DNA of 21,640 bases, taken from positions 1 through 21,640 of the IMG/VR virus record IMGVR_UViG_3300009601_000015. The stretch is one strand, 5' to 3'. Position numbers and translations under genes: made by a program. Within the stretch, counting starts at the first letter, position 1. Every line of letters starts with the position of its first letter. Shown here piece after piece: positions 1,106 through 9,808 of this stretch. Source of the stretch: a virus. The notes under the pieces are model-generated. The model ran no database searches. It was not told where the DNA came from and saw only the letters and a list, made by a program, of their open reading frames with translations.

Positions 1106-1291
1106 TTATGCTTTAAAATTTGTTATTGTTTCGTTTGCTCCAAAATGGAACCATATTCGGCATGTAATATATTCTGCTGAATCTACAGTATACTTTTCCA
1201 ATAGATATGCAGTCCTACTGCTTTTTTTCTTCCATTGGGAACCGTTACTATTAAAAGCCTCACCTATTGCTAAATCTTTAAAAGTTTTCAT
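1106..1291 (-). CDS. Hypothetical conserved-type phage protein, 61 aa
   Basis: The sequence MKTFKDLAIGEAFNSNGSQW followed by KKKSSRTAYLL has a layout I associate with many tiny phage proteins: F-x-D-L-x-x-G-x-x-F, then W-x-K-x-S-x-x-T-A, suggesting a small beta-barrel-like fold. This is a pattern match from memory, not a search result, and no function is known to me. The start overlaps the preceding stop by ATGA; the stop merges with the SD of the 28-aa gene. It lies within the leftward unit driven by the promoter near 1609-1636. Confidence 0.65.
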   Translation of the reverse strand: MKTFKDLAIGEAFNSNGSQWKKKSSRTAYLLEKYTVDSAEYITCRIWFHFGANETITNFKA

Positions 1292-1569
1292 AGTGTCACA
1301 CCGTCAATGGTTGCTGCAAAATTCTTAATGCTTGCATTAACACCTAATGCGCGTAATCTGCTGCGTGTGGTAGATGTGGGCCAATCTCTGAACGTATCAG
1401 TGTTAGGTATTATGCTATCTGTAGTATGTACAAATGTGGCTATGTGATGCCCATGCAAGTAGATTGCGCTTGAGTTTACTTCTGGTGCATACCTAACAGA
1501 TGTATTAGCAAAACTAAAATCATCTTTGTTTACTACTGCTGCGTTCATTTGCTTTTCAATTTTTCTCAT
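1288..1569 (-). CDS. Hypothetical protein, 93 aa, first gene after a leftward promoter
   Basis: The protein starts MRKIEKQMNAAVVNKDDFSF; its start is supported by a GGAGC SD nine bases upstream and by a shared leader sequence. The middle (SSAIYLHGHHIATFVHT) looks like a beta hairpin, and the C-terminal half contains a basic segment (TRSRLRALGVNASIKNF) that could be a helical DNA- or RNA-contacting part, though this is not diagnostic. No family is recognised. It is promoter-proximal in its unit: a strong -10/-35 pair with two operator-like sites lies 40-75 bases upstream. Confidence 0.65.
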   Translation of the reverse strand: MRKIEKQMNAAVVNKDDFSFANTSVRYAPEVNSSAIYLHGHHIATFVHTTDSIIPNTDTFRDWPTSTTRSRLRALGVNASIKNFAATIDGVTL

Positions 1570-1608
1570 TTTTATTGCTCCGTTTGTTTATTTACTTAAC
1601 TTGGAACT

Positions 1609-1646
1609 ATTATAACACTTCTGTTGATATGTGCAACACTTTTGTT
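1609..1646 (-). promoter_or_regulatory. Leftward promoter with two operator-like sites
   Basis: Reading leftward, TTGCAC (1636-1631) and a perfect TATAAT (1614-1609) are separated by 16 bp. Two copies of a 12-bp site lie on it: AACACTTCTGTT at 1614-1625 (spacer and edge of the -10) and AACACTTTTGTT at 1635-1646 (edge of the -35). Their starts are exactly 21 bp apart, two helical turns, as expected for cooperative repressor binding. The leader that follows (AAGTTAAGTAAATAAAC then ACGGAGC) is shared with other promoters in the window. Confidence 0.75.
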
Positions 1647-1655
1647 TAATAAAAG

Positions 1656-1961
1656 TTAAAAAACTTTATTGGTGAGAATACAAAACCCCCAAGCATCTAA
1701 ATTTTCTTCGTTAATGGTCTTTTCATCCCAAAGTAAGGCAGCATCAAAACCGTTTTGTTTGACTATCTGTAATCCAGCCAATGCATTTATATAACTATCA
1801 CCTAACCAGTACATATAATGATCTTCAAGAAAATTAAACGATTCTAAATCGTCACCTTTAATAAAATCAAATGCAGAAAGATCATCTGCACTCATTTGCC
1901 CAATATTGCAGGCCGTATGCCACAACATTTTAAAATCTTCTATTTCAATTTCAATTTTCAT
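1656..1961 (-). CDS. Hypothetical acidic protein, 101 aa
   Basis: The ATG at 1961 (MKIEIEIEDFKMLWHTACNI) is chosen because the in-frame TTG at 1973 is part of the TTGGAGC SD that serves this ATG. The protein is acidic and helical, with aromatic-rich stretches (FLEDHYMYWLGDSYINALAG, ENLDAWGFCIL). It resembles small phage or plasmid proteins of unknown function, and I cannot assign it. It is the last gene of its unit; its stop is immediately followed by an AT-rich imperfect palindrome (AATAAAGTT, four T, AACTTTTATT) that may be a weak terminator, and then by the next leftward promoter. Confidence 0.65.
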   Translation of the reverse strand: MKIEIEIEDFKMLWHTACNIGQMSADDLSAFDFIKGDDLESFNFLEDHYMYWLGDSYINALAGLQIVKQNGFDAALLWDEKTINEENLDAWGFCILTNKVF

Positions 1962-1992
1962 TTTTAGCTCCAAGGGCTTAACCCTGTTATTG

Positions 1993-2184
1993 TTATGCTT
2001 TTAAAGAAAAAACACCTTCACGTAACATAAAATTAAACTTAGTTGTATAGCTTTTAACTTTTTCGCCAGTTTCTAAATTAATGTATCGAACATTTTTAGC
2101 ACCAATATCTCTAATTTCAATATCAAAACCGTGATTATTATTAGTTAAAATGTCACCTTTTTTTAATTCATTTGCATTTTTCAT
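1993..2184 (-). CDS. Hypothetical small beta-barrel-like protein, 63 aa
   Basis: The sequence MKNANELKKGDILTNNNHGF has the K-K-G-D-I-L pattern seen at the start of SH3/KOW-like barrels, and the rest alternates hydrophobic strands with turns (DIEIRDIGAKNVRYINLETG). The fold is inferred from pattern only and the function is unknown. The SD is a modest AGGA about nine bases upstream of the ATG. A GC hairpin (2221-2233) lies between it and the preceding gene. Confidence 0.62.
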   Translation of the reverse strand: MKNANELKKGDILTNNNHGFDIEIRDIGAKNVRYINLETGEKVKSYTTKFNFMLREGVFSLKA

Positions 2185-2220
2185 AATCTAATCCTAGTAC
2201 CAAGTACCGCTTTGTCAGTG

Positions 2221-2233
2221 GGGGCGTAGCCCC
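2221..2233 (-). other. Intercistronic GC hairpin
   Basis: On the minus strand GGGGC-TAC-GCCCC can form a compact 5-bp all-GC stem between two leftward genes. No T-run follows. It belongs to a set with 3172-3185 and 3380-3393, which share the stem GGGGC/GCCCC. Confidence 0.5.
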
Positions 2234-2259
2234 TATTAGTAATTAAGCTAATTTCATAT

Positions 2260-2538
2260 TCATCTAAGAGCATTAACATATAGATCTTCGTCTATATCAA
2301 TTAGCTGTAGAGCACAGGTCTGTAAACAACGCATCATAGACCTTTGACTGAAAGTAGTATTACGACCATCAGGATAAAAAGCTTTTACTAAAGGCTCAAG
2401 CTCCATATCTAACATTACAGACAAGGTAACACGATCAGCGTGATCGCCTATATCCAATGGTTGAATTGCCTGATTCTTAGCAGTATTCTTATTATTAACA
2501 TATTCCTTTAGATTCTGTGGGAACTTTATATTCATCAT
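2260..2538 (-). CDS. Hypothetical protein, 92 aa, possible small DNA-binding protein
   Basis: The protein starts MMNIKFPQNLKEYVNNKNTA. A short strand-like segment (DRVTLSVMLDMELEPLVKAF) is followed by helices (SQRSMMRCLQTCALQLIDID). One strand then two helices is loosely like a ribbon-helix-helix protein, but the match is weak. It is the first gene behind the promoter at 2584-2612, preceded by GAG about eight bases before the ATG. Being promoter-proximal behind a duplicated operator would suit a self-regulator, but this is speculative. Confidence 0.62.
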   Translation of the reverse strand: MMNIKFPQNLKEYVNNKNTAKNQAIQPLDIGDHADRVTLSVMLDMELEPLVKAFYPDGRNTTFSQRSMMRCLQTCALQLIDIDEDLYVNALR

Positions 2539-2583
2539 AATATTTTCTCTTTATTAATTTATTTACTTACTTAACTTATGTCC

Positions 2584-2622
2584 ATCTTATACAATTATGT
2601 TTATAGTGTCAACACTTTTGTT
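2584..2622 (-). promoter_or_regulatory. Leftward promoter with paired operator-like sites
   Basis: A perfect TTGACA (2612-2607) and TAAGAT (2589-2584) are 17 bp apart; TATAAG two bases upstream of that is an alternative -10. The 16-bp palindrome TCAACACTTTTGTTGA covers the -35 and holds the 12-bp site at 2611-2622. A relaxed copy (TACAATTATGTT, nine of twelve bases) begins exactly 21 bp away at 2590. The leader downstream again reads AAGTTAAGTAAGTAAATAAA. Confidence 0.7.
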
Positions 2623-2635
2623 GAAGAAATATTAA

Positions 2636-2833
2636 TTACATAATCCCGCTTTCATTTTGTTCATCAAAAGAATCCCAAAACGATTTCTTTTTAAGAGTGT
2701 TTATTTTTTTTGTTTCTGATTCTAGTCGTTCAGCTATTTCTCTTTCAGTTTTATTATTTCTAAGCATTGCATTTGTTATAGTAATAATCTGCATTTTGTT
2801 TAGTGTTTTATTTTCTTTTTGTGATTGGTTCAT
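2636..2833 (-). CDS. Hypothetical basic helical protein, 65 aa
   Basis: The protein starts MNQSQKENKTLNKMQIITIT; it is Lys/Glu/Asn-rich and probably helical, with a segment REIAERLESETKKI that could be half of a helix-turn-helix or a coiled coil. The SD GGTGAG lies seven bases upstream of the ATG, near the preceding gene's 3' end. No family is recognised. It ends just before the promoter at 2584-2612, so it is the last gene of the unit begun at the promoter near 3575-3603. Confidence 0.6.
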   Translation of the reverse strand: MNQSQKENKTLNKMQIITITNAMLRNNKTEREIAERLESETKKINTLKKKSFWDSFDEQNESGIM

Positions 2834-2845
2834 GCTAACTCACCA

Positions 2846-3154
2846 TTAATATATAAATTCATGTTCAAATTGAAGTTGATTTAGCTCAATCAATATGTCG
2901 TTACACCAATCCCAACGATCAATGACAACCGCTTCTGCACCGTGACGCTTTCTAATGCTTGGGTATGTTTTATTAGTGCCTAAAGCAATATTAGCTTGAT
3001 TATGTTTTAAGATAACGTAGGTCAATTCAGTGCGAGTTAGTTTAAACCCTCCCATCATAGCCTTAGCCATTTCCAATGGTGACTGATTCTTTTCAGTCTC
3101 GCTGTACGCTTCCCATAAAAAACACGATGCTGCTTTTTGATTAACTATATACAT
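2846..3154 (-). CDS. Hypothetical protein, 102 aa
   Basis: The protein starts MYIVNQKAASCFLWEAYSET and is preceded by a clear CTGGAGC SD nine bases upstream. Features seen: a helix with KAMMGGFKLTRTELTYVILK, an alternating basic stretch (NKTYPSIRKRHGAEAVVIDR), and an acidic C-terminal helix (WCNDILIELNQLQFEHEF). I do not recognise a family. The GC hairpin at 3172-3185, with a UACG loop in RNA, separates it from the preceding gene. Confidence 0.68.
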   Translation of the reverse strand: MYIVNQKAASCFLWEAYSETEKNQSPLEMAKAMMGGFKLTRTELTYVILKHNQANIALGTNKTYPSIRKRHGAEAVVIDRWDWCNDILIELNQLQFEHEFIY

Positions 3155-3171
3155 GGTTCTGCTCCAGTGTT

Positions 3172-3185
3172 GGGGCCGTAGCCCC
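3172..3185 (-). other. Intercistronic GC hairpin with UACG tetraloop
   Basis: The minus-strand sequence GGGGCTACGGCCCC folds into a 5-bp all-GC stem closed by C(UACG)G, a member of the extra-stable UNCG tetraloop class. It lies between the stop of the 58-aa gene and the SD of the 102-aa gene. The lack of a T-run argues against termination. Confidence 0.6.
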
Positions 3186-3190
3186 TAATG

Positions 3191-3367
3191 TTAGTTTAAG
3201 TATTCTTCGTACTGACTTTTACTTTTTGCTTCCGATATATATTCGGAAGATGCACATACTCGATCATTGTTTTGCAAAACACAGATATCGTAAGGCTCAA
3301 TATCAGTAACTTCCAACCAATGCTTTGATTCGTGTAAACGAACAAAATCACCTATAAATAAAATCAT
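3191..3367 (-). CDS. Hypothetical small beta-barrel-like protein, 58 aa
   Basis: The ATG at 3367 (MILFIGDFVRLHESKHWLEV) is preferred; the in-frame TTG at 3379 belongs to the TTGGAGC SD. The pattern G-D-F-V-R, then W-L-E-V-T-D-I, then a final strand with YI resembles small SH3/KOW-like barrels and is similar in layout to the 63-aa protein at 1993-2184. Function is unknown. It is the second gene after the promoter at 3575-3603 and is flanked on both sides by GC hairpins. Confidence 0.65.
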   Translation of the reverse strand: MILFIGDFVRLHESKHWLEVTDIEPYDICVLQNNDRVCASSEYISEAKSKSQYEEYLN

Positions 3368-3379
3368 GTGATGCTCCAA

Positions 3380-3393
3380 GGGGCCACGGCCCC
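3380..3393 (-). other. Intercistronic GC hairpin
   Basis: The minus-strand sequence GGGGCCGTGGCCCC gives the same 5-bp GGGGC/GCCCC stem with a CGTG loop. It sits directly before the TTGGAGC SD of the 58-aa gene, the same position relative to the next gene as the hairpin at 3172-3185. Confidence 0.55.
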
Positions 3394-3401
3394 GTTTATT
3401 G

Positions 3402-3542
3402 TTATTTGACTGCTTCGATTAATCGGTTAACTGCTTCTAATGCCCTCTTAAAAGCATCTTCTTGACTCATGCCTTGAGAGATTAAGTCATTGGTAAAAAA
3501 ATCCAACATCTGCATGGCTTTAATTTTTTGTGCTTGGTTCAT
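3402..3542 (-). CDS. Hypothetical small helical protein, 46 aa
   Basis: This short gene encodes MNQAQKIKAMQMLDFFTNDL, continuing ISQGMSQEDAFKRALEAVNR. It is amphipathic and probably two helices. It has a CGGAG SD seven bases before the ATG, and the shared promoter leader lies immediately upstream, so it is the first gene of a leftward unit and very likely expressed. No family is recognised. Its opening MNQxQK resembles that of the 65-aa protein at 2636-2833 (MNQSQK). Confidence 0.65.
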   Translation of the reverse strand: MNQAQKIKAMQMLDFFTNDLISQGMSQEDAFKRALEAVNRLIEAVK

Positions 3543-3574
3543 GTTTTCTCCGTTTATTTACTTAACTTGCAGGC

Positions 3575-3613
3575 ATGGTAAACCCTTGTGTTTAATATGT
3601 CAACACTTTTGTT
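3575..3613 (-). promoter_or_regulatory. Leftward promoter with paired operator-like sites
   Basis: TTGACA (3603-3598) and TACCAT (3580-3575) are spaced by 17 bp. The palindrome TCAACACTTTTGTTGA again covers the -35 with the 12-bp core at 3602-3613, and a ten-of-twelve match (AACCCTTGTGTT) begins exactly 21 bp away at 3581. The leader AAGTTAAGTAAATAAACGGAG follows the start point. The -35 is consensus and the -10 is poor. Confidence 0.7.
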
Positions 3614-3643: not shown

Positions 3644-4228
3644 CTAGAACTGTTCAGATAGTTTGATCGACAGGCGTAGTTTAGCCTTAAAAATTTGCTT
3701 GATTCTTCGCAGGTATTTAATGTCATGCTTAACAATAGCATTGTTATTTTCTAAAGCTTCGACTTTTTCTAGCCCAATTAGCTTAACTAAATTAATACGA
3801 TACTCAACGACATTACCACTCAAATAGCGGTTGCAGCGGTGACACTGTTTAGCGCAGTTGTGTAAATTAAAACTAAGGTGCTTTGCGCTGCCTCTGCTTC
3901 TATAATGGCCTGCGTCCCAGTACCCACCCAAGCCATGATGTTCACCCATTGAATCGCAACTTATACAAGATAAGTGCCTGTCCCTGTGTCTGACGTATGC
4001 ATTAAACGCGCTTTGAGCTTCTACGCGCCATTGTGATGCTGTTTTAAGCGTGTCCTTTAGTTTTGTAAGGTTTTCACGCTTGCGCTTCTCTGAGGTGTAC
4101 ACAGCAGCCTTTTTGCCATGTTGCAACACGCAATCCATAGAGCAGAAAAAACCTAGAGGCACTTTAACGCCAGAGTCAGGGGCAGCGTATACCTTGCAGT
4201 GGCGACACTTCTTTTTAGCGTTAGGCAT
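3644..4228 (-). CDS. ninG: NinG/Rap-type recombination protein
   Basis: The 194-aa protein fits the lambda NinG (Rap) family, structure-specific HNH-like endonucleases that act on branched recombination intermediates (D-loops, Holliday-like structures). An N-terminal zinc knuckle is visible (CRHCK at about 8-12, FFCSMDC at about 28-34), followed by a basic helical region. A second Cys/His cluster, CISCDS at about 108-113, HYRSRGSAKHLSFNLHNCAK and QCHRCNRYLSGN, is characteristic of the family. The length matches lambda NinG (about 200 aa). It overlaps the DUF551 gene by 8 bp and belongs to the ERF-SSB-NinB module. The start has a poor SD but gives the expected family N-terminus. Confidence 0.92.
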   Translation of the reverse strand: MPNAKKKCRHCKVYAAPDSGVKVPLGFFCSMDCVLQHGKKAAVYTSEKRKRENLTKLKDTLKTASQWRVEAQSAFNAYVRHRDRHLSCISCDSMGEHHGLGGYWDAGHYRSRGSAKHLSFNLHNCAKQCHRCNRYLSGNVVEYRINLVKLIGLEKVEALENNNAIVKHDIKYLRRIKQIFKAKLRLSIKLSEQF

Positions 4229-4406
4229 AAGTAGGCGGTTTTGGCAAAGGTTGCCAATGAGTTATATTTTCCATGCCTGCGCCAGTATCATCAAATGGCA
4301 AGCCTTTAGTTATAAAGCCAATAAAAAACTCTTCATTTTCATCAATTAACAATACATCACCATTATGGTTGGGGTGCTTATTTTCTATGTTAATCCATTT
4401 ACTCAT
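4221..4406 (-). CDS. DUF551-family protein, 61 aa
   Basis: MSKWINIENKHPNHNGDVLL opens with the W-I-x(n)-P-x(n)-G-x-V-L-L pattern, and the end carries ITHWQPLPKPP; both are hallmarks of DUF551, a small domain common in phage and prophage genomes and of unknown function. Its start overlaps the ninB stop (ATGA) and its end overlaps the ninG start, so it is translationally coupled inside the recombination module. This is recognition from memory of the family pattern. Confidence 0.85.
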   Translation of the reverse strand: MSKWINIENKHPNHNGDVLLIDENEEFFIGFITKGLPFDDTGAGMENITHWQPLPKPPTYA

Positions 4407-4867
4407 TTCTGTGATTCCCTATAAGTTTCGTAATCAGATAAAGTTTTGTCGGTAAACTCAACACCGTATTCAGAGCCTTTAACGTGCAGAAATTCGATAA
4501 ACTCGCTACCGTTAACTTTGCTAAAAGTTTTAACGCTTGGTCGTATGCAGACCATGTGCGTCCCACACAGGCTAGTTACCCATTTATTACCTTTCCGTAA
4601 CGGCTCACCCATTTGCTGTTTCTCTGTAGCAAAGTTAGAAACTAGCAACGCTTTCCATGTATCACGGTCATAATCAAGATCAACCTGTTTAGCTATGTCT
4701 CCAATCATTGCGTGGTAACATTTGTCTTGCAGATCAGTTGTACCCTCACGGCCTAGCGTCACTATTACTGGTGCGCCACTTCTCAAACCCTTGTTAGCCA
4801 TTTCCCAGACCTTGCTCATCTCTTCTTTTACGTTATCACTTGTGACCGTAAAATTTATATCAGCCAT
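4403..4867 (-). CDS. ninB: NinB (Orf-like) recombination mediator
   Basis: I place the start at the ATG at 4867 (MADINFTVTSDNVKEEMSKV), giving 154 aa, close to lambda NinB/Orf (146 aa). Family features: a central TDLQDKCYHAMIGDIAKQVD segment where relatives have the Q-N-x-x-x-H/W-x-x-L-x-D-I-A motif, followed by DTWKALLVSNF, and a C-terminal SEFIEFLHVKGSEYGVEF. Lambda Orf binds ssDNA and helps load recombinase in place of RecFOR, which fits placement after ERF and an SSB-like protein. The start lies inside the 3' end of the HTH gene (8-bp overlap), suggesting coupling. Confidence 0.9.
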   Translation of the reverse strand: MADINFTVTSDNVKEEMSKVWEMANKGLRSGAPVIVTLGREGTTDLQDKCYHAMIGDIAKQVDLDYDRDTWKALLVSNFATEKQQMGEPLRKGNKWVTSLCGTHMVCIRPSVKTFSKVNGSEFIEFLHVKGSEYGVEFTDKTLSDYETYRESQK

Positions 4868-5075
4868 GATTTTCACCCAATCCGACAAATTCACCTAAAG
4901 TAATTTCAAAATAATGAGCAAATTTTATTGCTAGCGATACTTTCATATCATTACCGTTACGCCAGCGCATTACTTGCTGCGGATGTACGCCAAAATCTCT
5001 AGCTAATTGTGACCCACTGATTTTAGACCGCGCTTGTGCTACTCTTAAAGCAGTTCCAGTATTAGATATTTCCAT
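4860..5075 (-). CDS. Cro/CI-type helix-turn-helix protein, 71 aa
   Basis: This small protein contains one HTH_3-like domain: ISGSQLARDFGVHPQQVMRW at about residues 19-38, with the conserved Gln after the first helix, Ala-x-x-F/L-G-V in the turn and a following W-R-N-G. Helices on either side (ALRVAQARS, LAIKFAHYFEITLGEFVGL) complete the five-helix fold, and there is no oligomerisation domain, as in Cro-like proteins. A good AAGGGG SD precedes the ATG. It lies between the SSB-like gene and ninB. It is the only clear Cro/CI-type regulator in the window and hence a candidate ligand for the repeated 12-bp operators; that link is inference. Confidence 0.85.
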   Translation of the reverse strand: MEISNTGTALRVAQARSKISGSQLARDFGVHPQQVMRWRNGNDMKVSLAIKFAHYFEITLGEFVGLGENHG

Positions 5076-5129
5076 GTTTATTTCCCCTTAATGTGGTATA
5101 TTTAATTCGCTCCAGTAGTAAGAAGCTTA

Positions 5130-5158
5130 CCCCACCCTAAAAAAGTGGGGCTTTTTTT
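5130..5158 (+). terminator. Intrinsic terminator-like hairpin facing right
   Basis: CCCCAC and GTGGGG form a 6-bp stem around a nine-base loop, followed on the plus strand by seven T. An outer AGTAAG/CTTACT pair flanks it. The orientation is rightward, opposite to the surrounding genes; on the minus strand there is no T-run after the stem. It would stop antisense transcripts, or it may simply be a structured leader ahead of the HTH gene. Confidence 0.6.
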
Positions 5159-5163
5159 GCTTA

Positions 5164-5433
5164 CTAAAAAGGTATGTCGTCTGCCTCATCAAAGACATTA
5201 TCAGCTTTTGGTGCTGCTGTTGGCTGTGATTGTGTTTGCTGAGTGTCTTTTAATGTAACGCTCAAACTCAATGCTGGTGATTTAGGATTAGCACCTTCCT
5301 TGCGCTTCCAACCACTTAGCCAGTAATCTTTACCGTCAACCATAATAGAGCCTGTCAAATCTGGATGGTTATCCGTCATCTTCTTACTATTGCCCCAAAC
5401 TGCCCCACGATTGTTGTTATCAAAGTCACTCAT
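5164..5433 (-). CDS. Single-stranded DNA-binding protein-like, 89 aa
   Basis: The start is taken at the ATG at 5433 (MSDFDNNNRGAVWGNSKKMT), which has an AAGGGG SD; the longer frame would run into ERF. The N-terminal part (NRGAVWGN, HPDLTGSIMVDGKDYWLSGW) looks like a small OB-type strand set. A flexible Gln/Pro/Ala linker follows, then an acidic tip DEADDIPF, nearly identical to the C-terminal tip by which bacterial SSBs recruit partners. The protein is shorter than E. coli SSB (178 aa). It lies just after ERF, so it probably coats ssDNA during annealing recombination or replication. The OB fold is inferred; the tip is seen directly. Confidence 0.8.
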   Translation of the reverse strand: MSDFDNNNRGAVWGNSKKMTDNHPDLTGSIMVDGKDYWLSGWKRKEGANPKSPALSLSVTLKDTQQTQSQPTAAPKADNVFDEADDIPF

Positions 5434-5435
5434 AA

Positions 5436-6044
5436 TTACATCCCCTTTTTGCTGCGAATAAATTCTTGCTGTTTGCCAGTACATTGACTCCACAGTTTTT
5501 GTTTCTCGTTTTCATCTAATTCAGCTAGTGCCTCGTTCATCATCGTATGCTCACCCGTAGCCTCACTTTCAATGACTAACGCCACTAAGTCTTGCATTAG
5601 CTTTTTGCTCACACGTTTAACAGGTGGTGCTACTGGCTCTGGTTCATTGCGATACATAGCCATTTCGCTATCATCATCGACACTTGGAATACCTGCCAGT
5701 GATTGCAAAGCATAACGCCTTGCGTAAGTAATCGCTGAACCTGCGCCTTGCGGTGTCACTTTATCCATAGGTAATAAGTATTCGTTTTGCAGCCATTGTC
5801 CAGATTTGTGCATGAGCATAGTAGATACACCAATGCCGTTACCGCCAGCAGATGTAACTGGTAATTGAACAAACGATAAACCATATTTAGCAAACGGTTC
5901 TTTGATTACTTTTATTACACTGGTCAAATCAGCGTAGCTACTTTTAAAGAAAGGGTTGTTGCTGTCTTTAATAGCCCCGCCCATTTCTGCCTGCGCCAAG
6001 CATAACGCTGTGGCTAGGTCTGTGATTGATTCTGATTGCTTCAT
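5436..6044 (-). CDS. erf: ERF-family single-strand annealing protein
   Basis: The 202-aa protein carries the ERF signature from its N-terminus: ALCLAQAEMGGAIKDSNNPF with FKSSYADLTSVI, then KYGLSFVQLPVTSAGGNGIG, and the core GAGSAITYARRYALQSLAGI with the acidic VDDDSEMA after it. ERF proteins (P22 Erf and relatives) form rings that anneal complementary ssDNA for circularisation and recombination of phage DNA. The length is typical. The SD GGAGC lies nine bases before the ATG. It is the first gene of the leftward block, behind the promoter at 6078-6106, and the SSB-like gene starts two bases after its stop. Confidence 0.95.
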   Translation of the reverse strand: MKQSESITDLATALCLAQAEMGGAIKDSNNPFFKSSYADLTSVIKVIKEPFAKYGLSFVQLPVTSAGGNGIGVSTMLMHKSGQWLQNEYLLPMDKVTPQGAGSAITYARRYALQSLAGIPSVDDDSEMAMYRNEPEPVAPPVKRVSKKLMQDLVALVIESEATGEHTMMNEALAELDENEKQKLWSQCTGKQQEFIRSKKGM

Positions 6045-6077: not shown

Positions 6078-6106
6078 AGTTTAACACACTTATGTAGTGA
6101 TTGCAA
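6078..6106 (-). promoter_or_regulatory. Leftward promoter for the recombination operon
   Basis: TTGCAA (6106-6101) and TAAACT (6083-6078) are 17 bp apart and point at erf, about 34 bases upstream of its ATG. A relaxed version of the operator (CACACTTATGTA, 6085-6096, nine of twelve) lies in the spacer. It is back to back with the rightward promoter at 6160-6188. Confidence 0.65.
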
Positions 6107-6159
6107 ACATCAATAACACCTTTTAACACAACGATGAATAAATTAAATACAAATAGGTG

Positions 6160-6188
6160 TTGCAAAGCATAAACACTTCTGTTATAAT
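6160..6188 (+). promoter_or_regulatory. Rightward early promoter with operator-like site
   Basis: TTGCAA (6160-6165), a 17-bp spacer and a perfect TATAAT (6183-6188) make one of the best sigma70 promoters in the window. The spacer contains AACACTTCTGTT (6172-6183), identical to the proximal operator of the promoter at 1609, although it reads opposite relative to transcription, as a near-palindrome can. The leader AAGTTAATAAATAAACAAAC before GGAGC matches the leaders of the leftward promoters. Confidence 0.8.
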
Positions 6189-6230: not shown

Positions 6231-6524
6231 ATGAACGCAAACAATCCAGCCAATGACGTATATATGTATGAGACTGAAATTGCAGACAAACGTGATGATT
6301 TGTTTTATGAGATTACCAGAACTGGTTCTGCTGCTGGCTATTCATTGCACGACTTGATTGAGACAGTTGACGATGAATATAAAGACAACATCATTGCTAT
6401 GTTAATGGTAGGTAATGACGATGTAAAAGAATACGCCAAAGAGCATTTGCTAGAATCGTTTAAAGAAATGCTTGACGATGATGCAATCTTAGAAATTTAC
6501 ATAGACGATAACTCAGAATTTTAA
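6231..6524 (+). CDS. Hypothetical acidic protein, 97 aa, first rightward gene
   Basis: The protein starts MNANNPANDVYMYETEIADK; a GGAGC SD lies nine bases upstream. It is very acidic, with helical segments (SLHDLIETVDDEYKDNIIAM, YAKEHLLESFKEMLDDDAIL) and an acidic C-terminus. No family is recognised. As the first gene behind the strong divergent promoter it is probably made early and in quantity, which fits a host-takeover, anti-defence or regulatory role, but nothing in the sequence identifies a target. Confidence 0.75.
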   Translation: MNANNPANDVYMYETEIADKRDDLFYEITRTGSAAGYSLHDLIETVDDEYKDNIIAMLMVGNDDVKEYAKEHLLESFKEMLDDDAILEIYIDDNSEF

Positions 6525-6557: not shown

Positions 6558-6914
6558 ATGATTAAAAAATCAAATCAACATTATCAACCTTGGTCAACAG
6601 ATGATACTTCATTCGCTTGGGATTCATTTGCAAAAGGAAAATCGCATGGATGGATAGCTAAAAAGCTAGGTAGAACTGTTAAATCTGTTGAGATAAACAT
6701 TAGTAAGACTAGAGTAAGTTTAAAGACTGTACCGTTTAAGCTAGATAACTTTGGCCCATCACCAGCTATCGGGCCAGCAGTAGTAAAGCATACTCGTAAA
6801 TCTAAAGCTAAAAAGAATGAAGTAGTTGATAATAACCAGAGGTATTGGCTTATGTTCTTTACTGGCTTTGCTGGTGGTATTTTTGGAGGCGTAGTTACAG
6901 CCTTTATACTTTAG
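6558..6914 (+). CDS. HTH protein with C-terminal membrane anchor, 118 aa
   Basis: The N-terminal segment (about residues 8-50) reads PWSTDDTSFAWDSFAKGKSH, then GWIAKKLGRTVKSVEINISK. This is a Myb/SANT- or GcrA-like helix-turn-helix layout: W-x-x-x-D/E at the start, then G-x-x-x-x-W-I-A-x-x-L-G-R-T-x-x-S-V. A basic linker (HTRKSKAKKNE) follows, and the final 24 residues form one glycine-rich hydrophobic helix (FFTGFAGGIFGGVVTAFIL), so it should be tail-anchored in the inner membrane with its DNA-binding domain in the cytoplasm. The SD GGAGC lies nine bases upstream of the ATG. Function is unknown. Confidence 0.75.
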   Translation: MIKKSNQHYQPWSTDDTSFAWDSFAKGKSHGWIAKKLGRTVKSVEINISKTRVSLKTVPFKLDNFGPSPAIGPAVVKHTRKSKAKKNEVVDNNQRYWLMFFTGFAGGIFGGVVTAFIL

Positions 6915-7883: not shown

Positions 7884-9358
7884 TGAATTTAAGGCCGCAT
7901 CAAGAACGCGCTATTGATATGCTACGCACATCGTTACGAAATGGTAACAAGCGACCAATACTAGCCGCGCCATGTTCGTTTGGTAAAACAATTACAGCAG
8001 CGTACCTACTTCAATCAGCAGCAGCTAAAGGCAAACGCAGTATCTTTATCTGTGACCGTATCAAATTAATTCAGCAGAGCCTAGAAGCGTTTAGTAGTGC
8101 TGGCATGAACTTTGGTGTTATCCAAGGTAATCACGAACTAACAAATTATGCAGCACCAATACAAATAGCCAGTACCCAGACACTAGCCAGAAGAAAGCGC
8201 ATACCTGAGTTTGACTTAGCTATAGTTGATGAATGTCATACGCACTACGCTAGTTTAGGCAAGATCATGGATAGCTATAATAACGTGCCATTCATTGGCT
8301 TATCTGCTACCCCATATTCTAAAGGTTTAGGTCAGCACTACGATGATCTTATTGTACCGATTACACCGCGCGAGTTATTAGAGCAAGGATACTTATGCCC
8401 TGTAGACTACTATGGTGGACGAAAAGTGGCACTAAAAGGTATTAAAACAAAACAGCTATCTACTGGTGGAAGTGATTATGACCCTGCTAGTTTAGCAGCA
8501 GCTACGGAAGATGATACAGGTTTGGTAGGTGACATTGTACGGAACTGGCTTGAGCATGGTGAAAACGGACAGACTATTGCCTTTGCACCTAGCATCAAAC
8601 ATAGCAAGCACTTGGTTGAGACATTCAATAACGCAGGCATTACAGCAGAACATATAGACGGATACATGGACGCAGACGAGCGAGACATTATTTATGCTGC
8701 CCACACTAGGGGCGAGTTTAAGATTCTGTCATGCAGCCGATTGTTAAACACTGGCTATGATGAACCTACCGTATCTTGCTTAATTGATTGCTTTCCAACC
8801 AAGTCATTGATTACTTTTGTGCAACGCGCTGGCCGTATTATGCGTACAGCAGAAGGTAAAGACAAAGCGATTTACCTAGACCATGCTGGCAATGTAGATC
8901 GTCATGGATTTGCAGAGGATATTATTCCAGAATCATTAGACGATGGTATTCAGAAGTTTAACGAAAAGAAGCTAGTTAAAAAGAAAAAAGAATCAAAGGT
9001 TAAAGAGTGTCCACAGTGTACACAACAGATGGTTGGATTACGCTGCAAGTGTGGTTACGAAATACCATTGACTGAGCAGATAGAAACCACAGATGAAATT
9101 CTACAACGATTAACACCAGACCAAAGAAACAGAAAAGACACAAAGCAAGACAAAAGTGTTTTCTATTCAGAGTTATTGTTGTACACTCGTAGTAAGGGCT
9201 ATAAGACTAGTTGGGCTAGTCATAAGTACCGTGAGCGATACGGTGTATGGCCTAACATGATTAAACCTCAGATGCTTTCCAATGGAATATCTGATGAAAC
9301 AAGAAAATACATAACAAGTACCCAGATAAGGTACGCAAAACGGAGCAATGCAGCATGA
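7880..9358 (+). CDS. Superfamily 2 DEAD/DEAH-type helicase, 492 aa
   Basis: All main SF2 motifs are visible. An N-terminal RPHQ Q-motif-like segment; Walker A APCSFGKT (about 30-37); motif Ia area FICDRIKLI; motif II DECH (117-120); motif III GLSATP (140-145); motif IV AFAPSIKHSKHL; motif V area LNTGYDEP; motif VI QRAGRIMR (about 315-322). After the two RecA-like domains comes a small zinc ribbon (CPQC near 377, CKCGY near 389) and a C-terminal basic helical domain. Phage helicases of this RadD/UvsW-like kind remodel forks and recombination intermediates. It is coupled to the nuclease-like gene upstream and the zinc-ribbon gene downstream by ATGA overlaps. Confidence 0.93.
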   Translation: MMNLRPHQERAIDMLRTSLRNGNKRPILAAPCSFGKTITAAYLLQSAAAKGKRSIFICDRIKLIQQSLEAFSSAGMNFGVIQGNHELTNYAAPIQIASTQTLARRKRIPEFDLAIVDECHTHYASLGKIMDSYNNVPFIGLSATPYSKGLGQHYDDLIVPITPRELLEQGYLCPVDYYGGRKVALKGIKTKQLSTGGSDYDPASLAAATEDDTGLVGDIVRNWLEHGENGQTIAFAPSIKHSKHLVETFNNAGITAEHIDGYMDADERDIIYAAHTRGEFKILSCSRLLNTGYDEPTVSCLIDCFPTKSLITFVQRAGRIMRTAEGKDKAIYLDHAGNVDRHGFAEDIIPESLDDGIQKFNEKKLVKKKKESKVKECPQCTQQMVGLRCKCGYEIPLTEQIETTDEILQRLTPDQRNRKDTKQDKSVFYSELLLYTRSKGYKTSWASHKYRERYGVWPNMIKPQMLSNGISDETRKYITSTQIRYAKRSNAA

Positions 9359-9738: not shown

Positions 9739-9780
9739 AGAATTAATTACACTTTAATTGTTTATCTATACAATAAGGTG

Positions 9781-9808
9781 TTGCATAAGACACATGACTG
9801 TGTATAAT
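9781..9808 (+). promoter_or_regulatory. Rightward promoter
   Basis: TTGCAT (9781-9786) and TATAAT (9803-9808) are spaced by 16 bp, downstream of the zinc-ribbon gene and 34 bases before the next ATG. AAGGTGTT lies over the -35, as in the other promoters, and a small palindrome (ACACA-TGAC-TGTGT) fills the spacer. The leader again has GGTTAATAATAAAACGGAGC. Confidence 0.7.

Follow-up and report, generated by a model that had tools for sequence, protein, structure and literature searches.

Paired operator-like sites in an apparently portable promoter cassette of an uncultured phage group

Three leftward promoters of the virus record analyzed here, P1 to P3, carry a shared regulatory cassette in which a 12-bp dyad (AACA-N4-TGTT) at the −35 edge, O1, is accompanied by a second copy, O2, in the spacer between the −35 and −10 boxes. 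Judged from the sequence and its relatives, this paired operator in a mobile promoter cassette is real and conserved. We give about even odds (roughly 50%) to the reading that the pairs are operators within a portable sigma-70 promoter cassette, bound cooperatively and repressed by a phage Cro-like dimer. The pairs precede assorted small genes, and their shared purpose is most likely that one small phage-encoded protein shuts off all cassette genes together. In this way, sequence alone supplies an uncultured phage group with a regulon that can be defined and with a strong candidate for its regulator.

The cassette in the window

The window, meaning the whole 21,640-base virus record under analysis, contains the following cassette elements.

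1635..1646, minus strand: P1 operator O1, AACAAAAGTGTT, overlapping the −35 box TTGCAC
1614..1625, minus strand: P1 operator O2, AACAGAAGTGTT, 21 bp from O1 and abutting the −10 box
1609..1614, minus strand: P1 −10 box TATAAT
1570..1602, minus strand: P1 leader AAGTTAAGTAAATAAACAAACGGAGCAATAAAA, unstructured, predicted +1 at 1602
1288..1569, minus strand: P1 cargo gene, 93 aa, Kyano_Gp96 family (Pfam PF23790)
2611..2622, minus strand: P2 operator O1, AACAAAAGTGTT, overlapping the −35 box TTGACA
2590..2601, minus strand: P2 operator O2, AACATAATTGTA
2584..2589, minus strand: P2 −10 box TAAGAT
2539..2577, minus strand: P2 leader, beginning AAGTTAAGTAAGTAAATAAA, predicted +1 at 2577
2260..2538, minus strand: P2 cargo gene, 92 aa, no family match
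3602..3613, minus strand: P3 operator O1, AACAAAAGTGTT, overlapping the −35 box TTGACA
3581..3592, minus strand: P3 operator O2, AACACAAGGGTT
3575..3580, minus strand: P3 −10 box TACCAT
3543..3568, minus strand: P3 leader AAGTTAAGTAAATAAACGGAG, predicted +1 at 3568
3402..3542, minus strand: P3 cargo gene, 46 aa

The initial annotation had described a 12-bp near-palindrome on the −35 edge with a second copy exactly 21 bp away, and this arrangement is indeed present at all three leftward promoters. Its match counts for the second copy were right for P2 (9/12) and P3 (10/12), whereas the P1 copy, given as 12/12, matches at 11/12 positions. The leaders are similar, as it had stated, each opening with AAGTTAAGTAA exactly 6 nt past the −10 hexamer. 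Conservation of the transcribed leader, AAGTTAAG(T/A)AAATAA, starts at its predicted first nucleotide. No RNA structure was found in the cassette leaders, and no Rfam family matched in the window. The Kyano_Gp96 family of the P1 cargo gene was named from cyanophages and has relatives in 126 viral loci.

Exact AACACTTTTGTT occurs only three times in the window, each time with a partner at exactly 21 bp, and no pairs at other spacings (range, 12 to 59) were found. By comparison, 100 dinucleotide shuffles of the window produced 0 exact sites and 0 pairs. The loose 12-mer (≤3 mismatches) showed no clear enrichment, with 57 occurrences versus 47 ± 7 expected, so that the signal lies in the exact copies, their pairing, and their position. 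A chance origin of the pairs is ruled out by the shuffles and by the conservation in relatives described below. One further copy, at 9149-9160, was rejected as an operator, being inside a helicase gene and conserved together with that gene.

Conservation and geometry of the operator pair

A scan of relatives, as the initial annotation had proposed, found the 21-bp pairing conserved; Erf relatives likewise retain operator pairs. When O1 plus leader served as the query against 2.9 million viral contigs and the second site was ignored (the O2-blind scan), 37 distinct sequences were retrieved, 2 of them attributable to chance and 35 real promoters, in which the second site lay at 21 bp (30 promoters) or 20 bp (5 promoters) and nowhere else. 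The leader-blind scan of the 2.9 million viral contigs, with pairs of AACAnAAGTGTT sites at distances of 12 to 42 bp as the query, yielded 40 pairs: 17 at 21 bp, 10 at 15 bp, 4 at 30 bp, 8 at 19 to 20 bp, and 1 at 22 bp. A −10 box and the AAGTTAAG leader follow all of the 21-bp pairs but one, which reaches the contig end. The pairs at 19 to 20 bp lie mostly upstream of hicA-like genes, while the 15- and 30-bp pairs in other viruses were set aside because, where inspected by eye, they resemble coding repeats (NTSVD codons). Moreover, AACA-N4-TGTT ranked first among 2816 dyads in the intergenic DNA of the group (23 versus 0.65 expected), followed in second place by TGTT-N9-AACA, which is the pairing itself (16 versus 0.65 expected). 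Two other candidates were also discarded: the likeness of P1 to Enterococcus phage phiSHEF2, since sites matching at 10 to 11 of 11 positions were equally numerous in the reversed and the real genome, and a possible equivalent operator of phages further removed, TGTTGCAnTGCA pairs, which were found in two loci only.

The distance to the −10 box was analyzed in a set of 48 promoters. With O1 and O2 at 21 bp, the −10 box started 11, 12, or 13 bp past the start of O2 in 7, 21, and 11 promoters, respectively. The operator spacing is thus constant although the position of the −10 box varies by 2 bp, which argues that the operator pair is under a constraint of its own, separate from the geometry of RNA polymerase. 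This amounts to a natural experiment and suggests that the distance follows protein-protein rather than polymerase geometry. No −10 box was imposed in the O2-blind set, in which the hexamer located 6 nt ahead of AAGTTAA matched TATAAT at no fewer than 4 positions in 34 of 37 sequences, placing the predicted transcription start at or near the leader's first A. On this numbering, O1 spans about −45 to −34, with its centre near −39.5, and O2 about −24 to −13.

Weaker or variant sites, some single and some paired, were observed at the two divergent early promoters, pL (the promoter of the erf-HTH operon) and pR, and at a rightward promoter near 9800.

6085..6096, minus strand: weak operator-like site TACATAAGTGTG in the pL spacer
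6078-6083: pL −10 box TAAACT
6148..6161, plus strand: variant O1 element TACAAATAGGTGTT at the pR −35 box
6160-6165, plus strand: pR −35 box TTGCAA
6172..6183, plus strand: operator AACACTTCTGTT in the pR spacer
6183-6188, plus strand: pR −10 box TATAAT
From 6195, plus strand: pR leader AAGTTAATAAATAAA
9769..9802, plus strand: variant O1 TACAATAAGGTGTT and CACATGACTGTG (ACA-N4-TGT) at the rightward promoter
9803-9808, plus strand: −10 box TATAAT of the rightward promoter

At pR the asymmetry of the core is reversed and its position is unchanged, indicating that the site behaves as a dyad. The variant O1 and O2 centres at pR are 23 bp apart, an exception to 21 bp, and those at the rightward promoter are 21 bp apart (centres counted by hand in both cases). 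A second conserved element, TACAAA(n)AGGTGTTGCA, occupies the −35 region of the rightward promoters (6148-6161 and 9769-9782), and a similar element replaces O1 in the cassettes of three loci (L166, L170, and L016). The first pR gene (6231-6524) encodes an acidic 97-aa protein that, among the loci examined, occurs in the operator-bearing group only.

A single phage repressor acting cooperatively on a dispersed regulon had been suggested in the initial annotation. One binding protein does best explain the dispersed promoters and conserved two-turn pairs, as indicated by the invariant spacing in relatives and by the top two intergenic dyads being the site and its pairing, whereas a repressor of the lysogenic type was not supported. 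A small dimeric phage HTH protein would bind the 12-bp dyad at both O1 and O2. With centres 21 bp apart, the two dimers would sit on the same face of the DNA, able to aid each other's binding, and together they would block RNA polymerase at each cassette promoter. Cooperativity and repression are both read from this geometry. In many promoters a relaxed O2 accompanies a near-perfect O1, the pattern to be expected if cooperativity fills O2, and the good −35 and −10 boxes of most promoters appear to suit repressed rather than activator-dependent promoters.

The difference between O1 and O2 would also suit a controller-protein-like switch, in which high-affinity O1 is bound first and activates, and low-affinity O2 in the spacer is then filled and represses, giving a pulse of early expression. 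The O1 centre at about −39.5, near sigma region 4, suits an activator; several −35 boxes match at just 3/6 positions, which leaves room for activation; and the candidate HTH protein introduced below has a predicted fold like those of C.BclI and C.AhdI. Nevertheless, basal activity is expected from the good core boxes of most promoters, and one subgroup has both sites perfect, so we regard this switch as unlikely.

The candidate binding protein and its rivals

Given that a protein binds the sites, the odds somewhat favor a 71-aa Cro-like HTH protein encoded in the early erf-ssb-HTH-ninB operon, which has the weaker site at its own promoter.

4860..5075, minus strand: 71-aa Cro/C1-type HTH protein (HTH_26), the best candidate operator-binding protein
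3644..6044, minus strand: early leftward operon erf - ssb - HTH - ninB - (4221-4406) - ninG

The protein scores above the Pfam cutoff for HTH_26. Its AlphaFold model, built from 27 sequences, has five helices in a Cro/CI-type fold (pLDDT 90.7; a single-sequence model was poor, at pLDDT 69) and resembles lambda repressor, C proteins, HigA, and ClgR with TM scores of about 0.65 to 0.8, these PDB fold matches being weak by E-value (best, 0.0057). A sequence search of the PDB with the protein gave no match. In 36 loci whose HTH protein shares at least 58% identity (327 kb, some loci possibly being near-duplicates), 38 perfect sites and 39 pairs were counted, versus 0 and 0 in reversed sequence. 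After redundancy was removed, AACA-N4-TGTT was still the most enriched intergenic dyad in this group and was absent or at chance level in the others. The motif VHPQQ(V/I)xRWR is almost invariant across the HTH proteins of the operator-bearing group. No perfect sites were found in 44 loci with HTH relatives of 32 to 50% identity (the 42 to 50% and 32 to 38% groups), although these relatives have nearly the same PQQVIRWR helix and often lie beside erf, ssb, or ninB. The HTH family is therefore not tied to this operator, and with relatives in operator-less phages the 71-aa protein stays a candidate reader of the sites. In the loci of distant HTH relatives, one intergenic region per locus contains, beside promoter-like sequence, dyads of the form ATCA-N4-TGAT with a separation of 41 bp, or about four turns (L202:8019-8071, L206:10845-10897, L224:15514-15566, and similar); with the same 4-N4-4 geometry, ATCA-N4-TGAT is possibly the operator of those relatives.

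Homologues of the proteins at 6231, 6558, and 11130 are group specific and track the operators at least as well as the 71-aa HTH. Another phage protein might read the pair, for example a homeodomain-like/D5-like HTH at 6558 or 11130 or a protein encoded outside the 21.6-kb record. Whereas the 71-aa HTH family extends beyond the operator-bearing group, homologues of 6558 and 11130 are confined to it, and 6558 matches phrog_323, a D5-like "transcriptional regulator." The dyad symmetry, however, would suit a symmetric XRE dimer better than a single homeodomain-like HTH. Furthermore, 6558 was not found in L178, which has the 6231 protein and two perfect sites, and the 10843 protein was not found in G001 beside its neighbor 11130. 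We rate such a reader as rather improbable and retain the Cro-like 71-aa HTH as the preferred candidate. Its autoregulation through the weak pL site is predicted, and its accumulation would turn off accessory and early genes in a lytic early-to-late switch. The binding, the identity of the protein, and the timing of the switch are what we infer from these patterns.

A lytic role also agrees with gene content. Neither a tyrosine integrase (PF00589) nor a CI-like protein or second HTH_3 protein was found in nine records, which are possibly incomplete; HTH_3 matches there, where found, were the 71-aa HTH alone. These results thus favor shutoff of early genes during lytic growth over lysogenic immunity, and a Cro-like repressor of the lytic type over a lysogenic one; the phage group is apparently non-integrating. 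One relative, G001 (34 kb), appears near-complete, since one and the same gene region seems to be present at both of its ends. By portal protein, the nearest isolate is Octadecabacter Antarctic DB virus 2 (44% identity). Neither the cassette nor an HTH relative was found in GTDB genomes covering 85,000 bacterial and archaeal species, for which reason a prophage origin was rejected. The same survey bears on the idea that a host regulator reads the sites and that the phage copied a host operator. The identical 12-mer, in pairs 19 to 20 bp apart, precedes hicA in unrelated records, so the word is used elsewhere; yet the cassette is in none of the bacterial genomes among these species, and the 12 pair hits in GTDB genomes have other layouts, making a host reader very unlikely.

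The cassette also appears to move. The MTNTYPL... gene (or its relative MNSTYPL...) was found behind four different promoter cores and a gp96-like gene behind two core types; since one gene can follow different cores and one core different genes, the cassette is portable. Between the P1 region of the window and L083:2187, the upstream 45 bp are 98% identical and the proteins 88%, whereas the core from O1 to leader shares 34% identity, and the exchange seems to have its joints at O1 and the leader. Erf anneals single strands, so exchange at short homologies could plausibly account for this. Such swapping of cores between identical upstream flanks and the same gene would even fit repeats that are mere short homologies for Erf-driven reshuffling of small genes, read by no protein. 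Recombination, though, would not hold a 21-bp distance or a dyad while the spacer and the −10 distance vary, and we consider unread repeats highly improbable. With operators that are read, we tentatively envisage, at well under even odds, a plug-in regulon of modular design. Its unit would be a self-contained cassette comprising the operator pair at two turns, the promoter, the leader with its fixed +1, and the ribosome site. Recombination would carry this unit from one accessory gene to another, so that any newly acquired gene would at once come under the Cro-like switch of a phage in which no lysogeny genes were detected. Cassette shuffling suggests how phages bring new genes under existing control.

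Comparison with known regulatory systems

The closest parallels are the Cro/CI operators of lambda, P22, and 434, which are likewise dyads over the −35 box and spacer of early promoters, served by a small Cro/C1-type HTH protein. In lambda-type operators adjacent sites lie about two turns apart, and the recombination genes erf, ninB, and ninG are near the HTH gene here. Here, however, the operators are distributed among several promoters and not gathered in a single OR and a single OL region, each promoter has one fixed pair, the HTH gene lies between ssb and ninB, and neither a CI-like protein nor a tyrosine integrase was found in the nine records mentioned above. The stoperators of mycobacteriophage cluster A (L5) share the principle of one repressor (here putative) with many copies of its site dispersed over the genome. 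An L5 site is an asymmetric 13-mer that stands alone, is bound by a monomer, and also stops elongation (PMC9283540). Stoperators are oriented with transcription, whereas the present sites are dyads, paired at 21 bp, at promoters, and in reversed orientation at pR.

Restriction-modification C proteins are comparable in that a small XRE protein uses a pair of dyad operators, OL and OR, within a single promoter, and for C.Csp231I operator spacing matters for the second dimer (PMC4321490). They differ in serving one promoter per system with both activation and repression, whereas the present system belongs to a phage and involves several promoters whose core boxes are good; no restriction-modification genes were found among the window proteins searched (a subset of the ORFs). 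At hicAB loci, the 12-mer AACAnAAGTGTT is identical to the phage site and is paired ahead of hicA, as observed 19 to 20 bp apart before hicA-like genes in L046, L049, L051, L054, L073, L076, and L077, where the pairs are probably the HicB operator. By contrast, the cassettes have other small genes and no hicA beside them, the spacing differs, and the hicAB pairs are without the AAGTTAAG leader; the likeness of the cassette to these presumed HicB operators is likely convergence. A limited literature search found no paper describing a paired-operator cassette. The design is of a known kind, that of phage repressor operators; what is new is the dispersed, fixed two-turn pairs, the fixed-start leader, and the portability.
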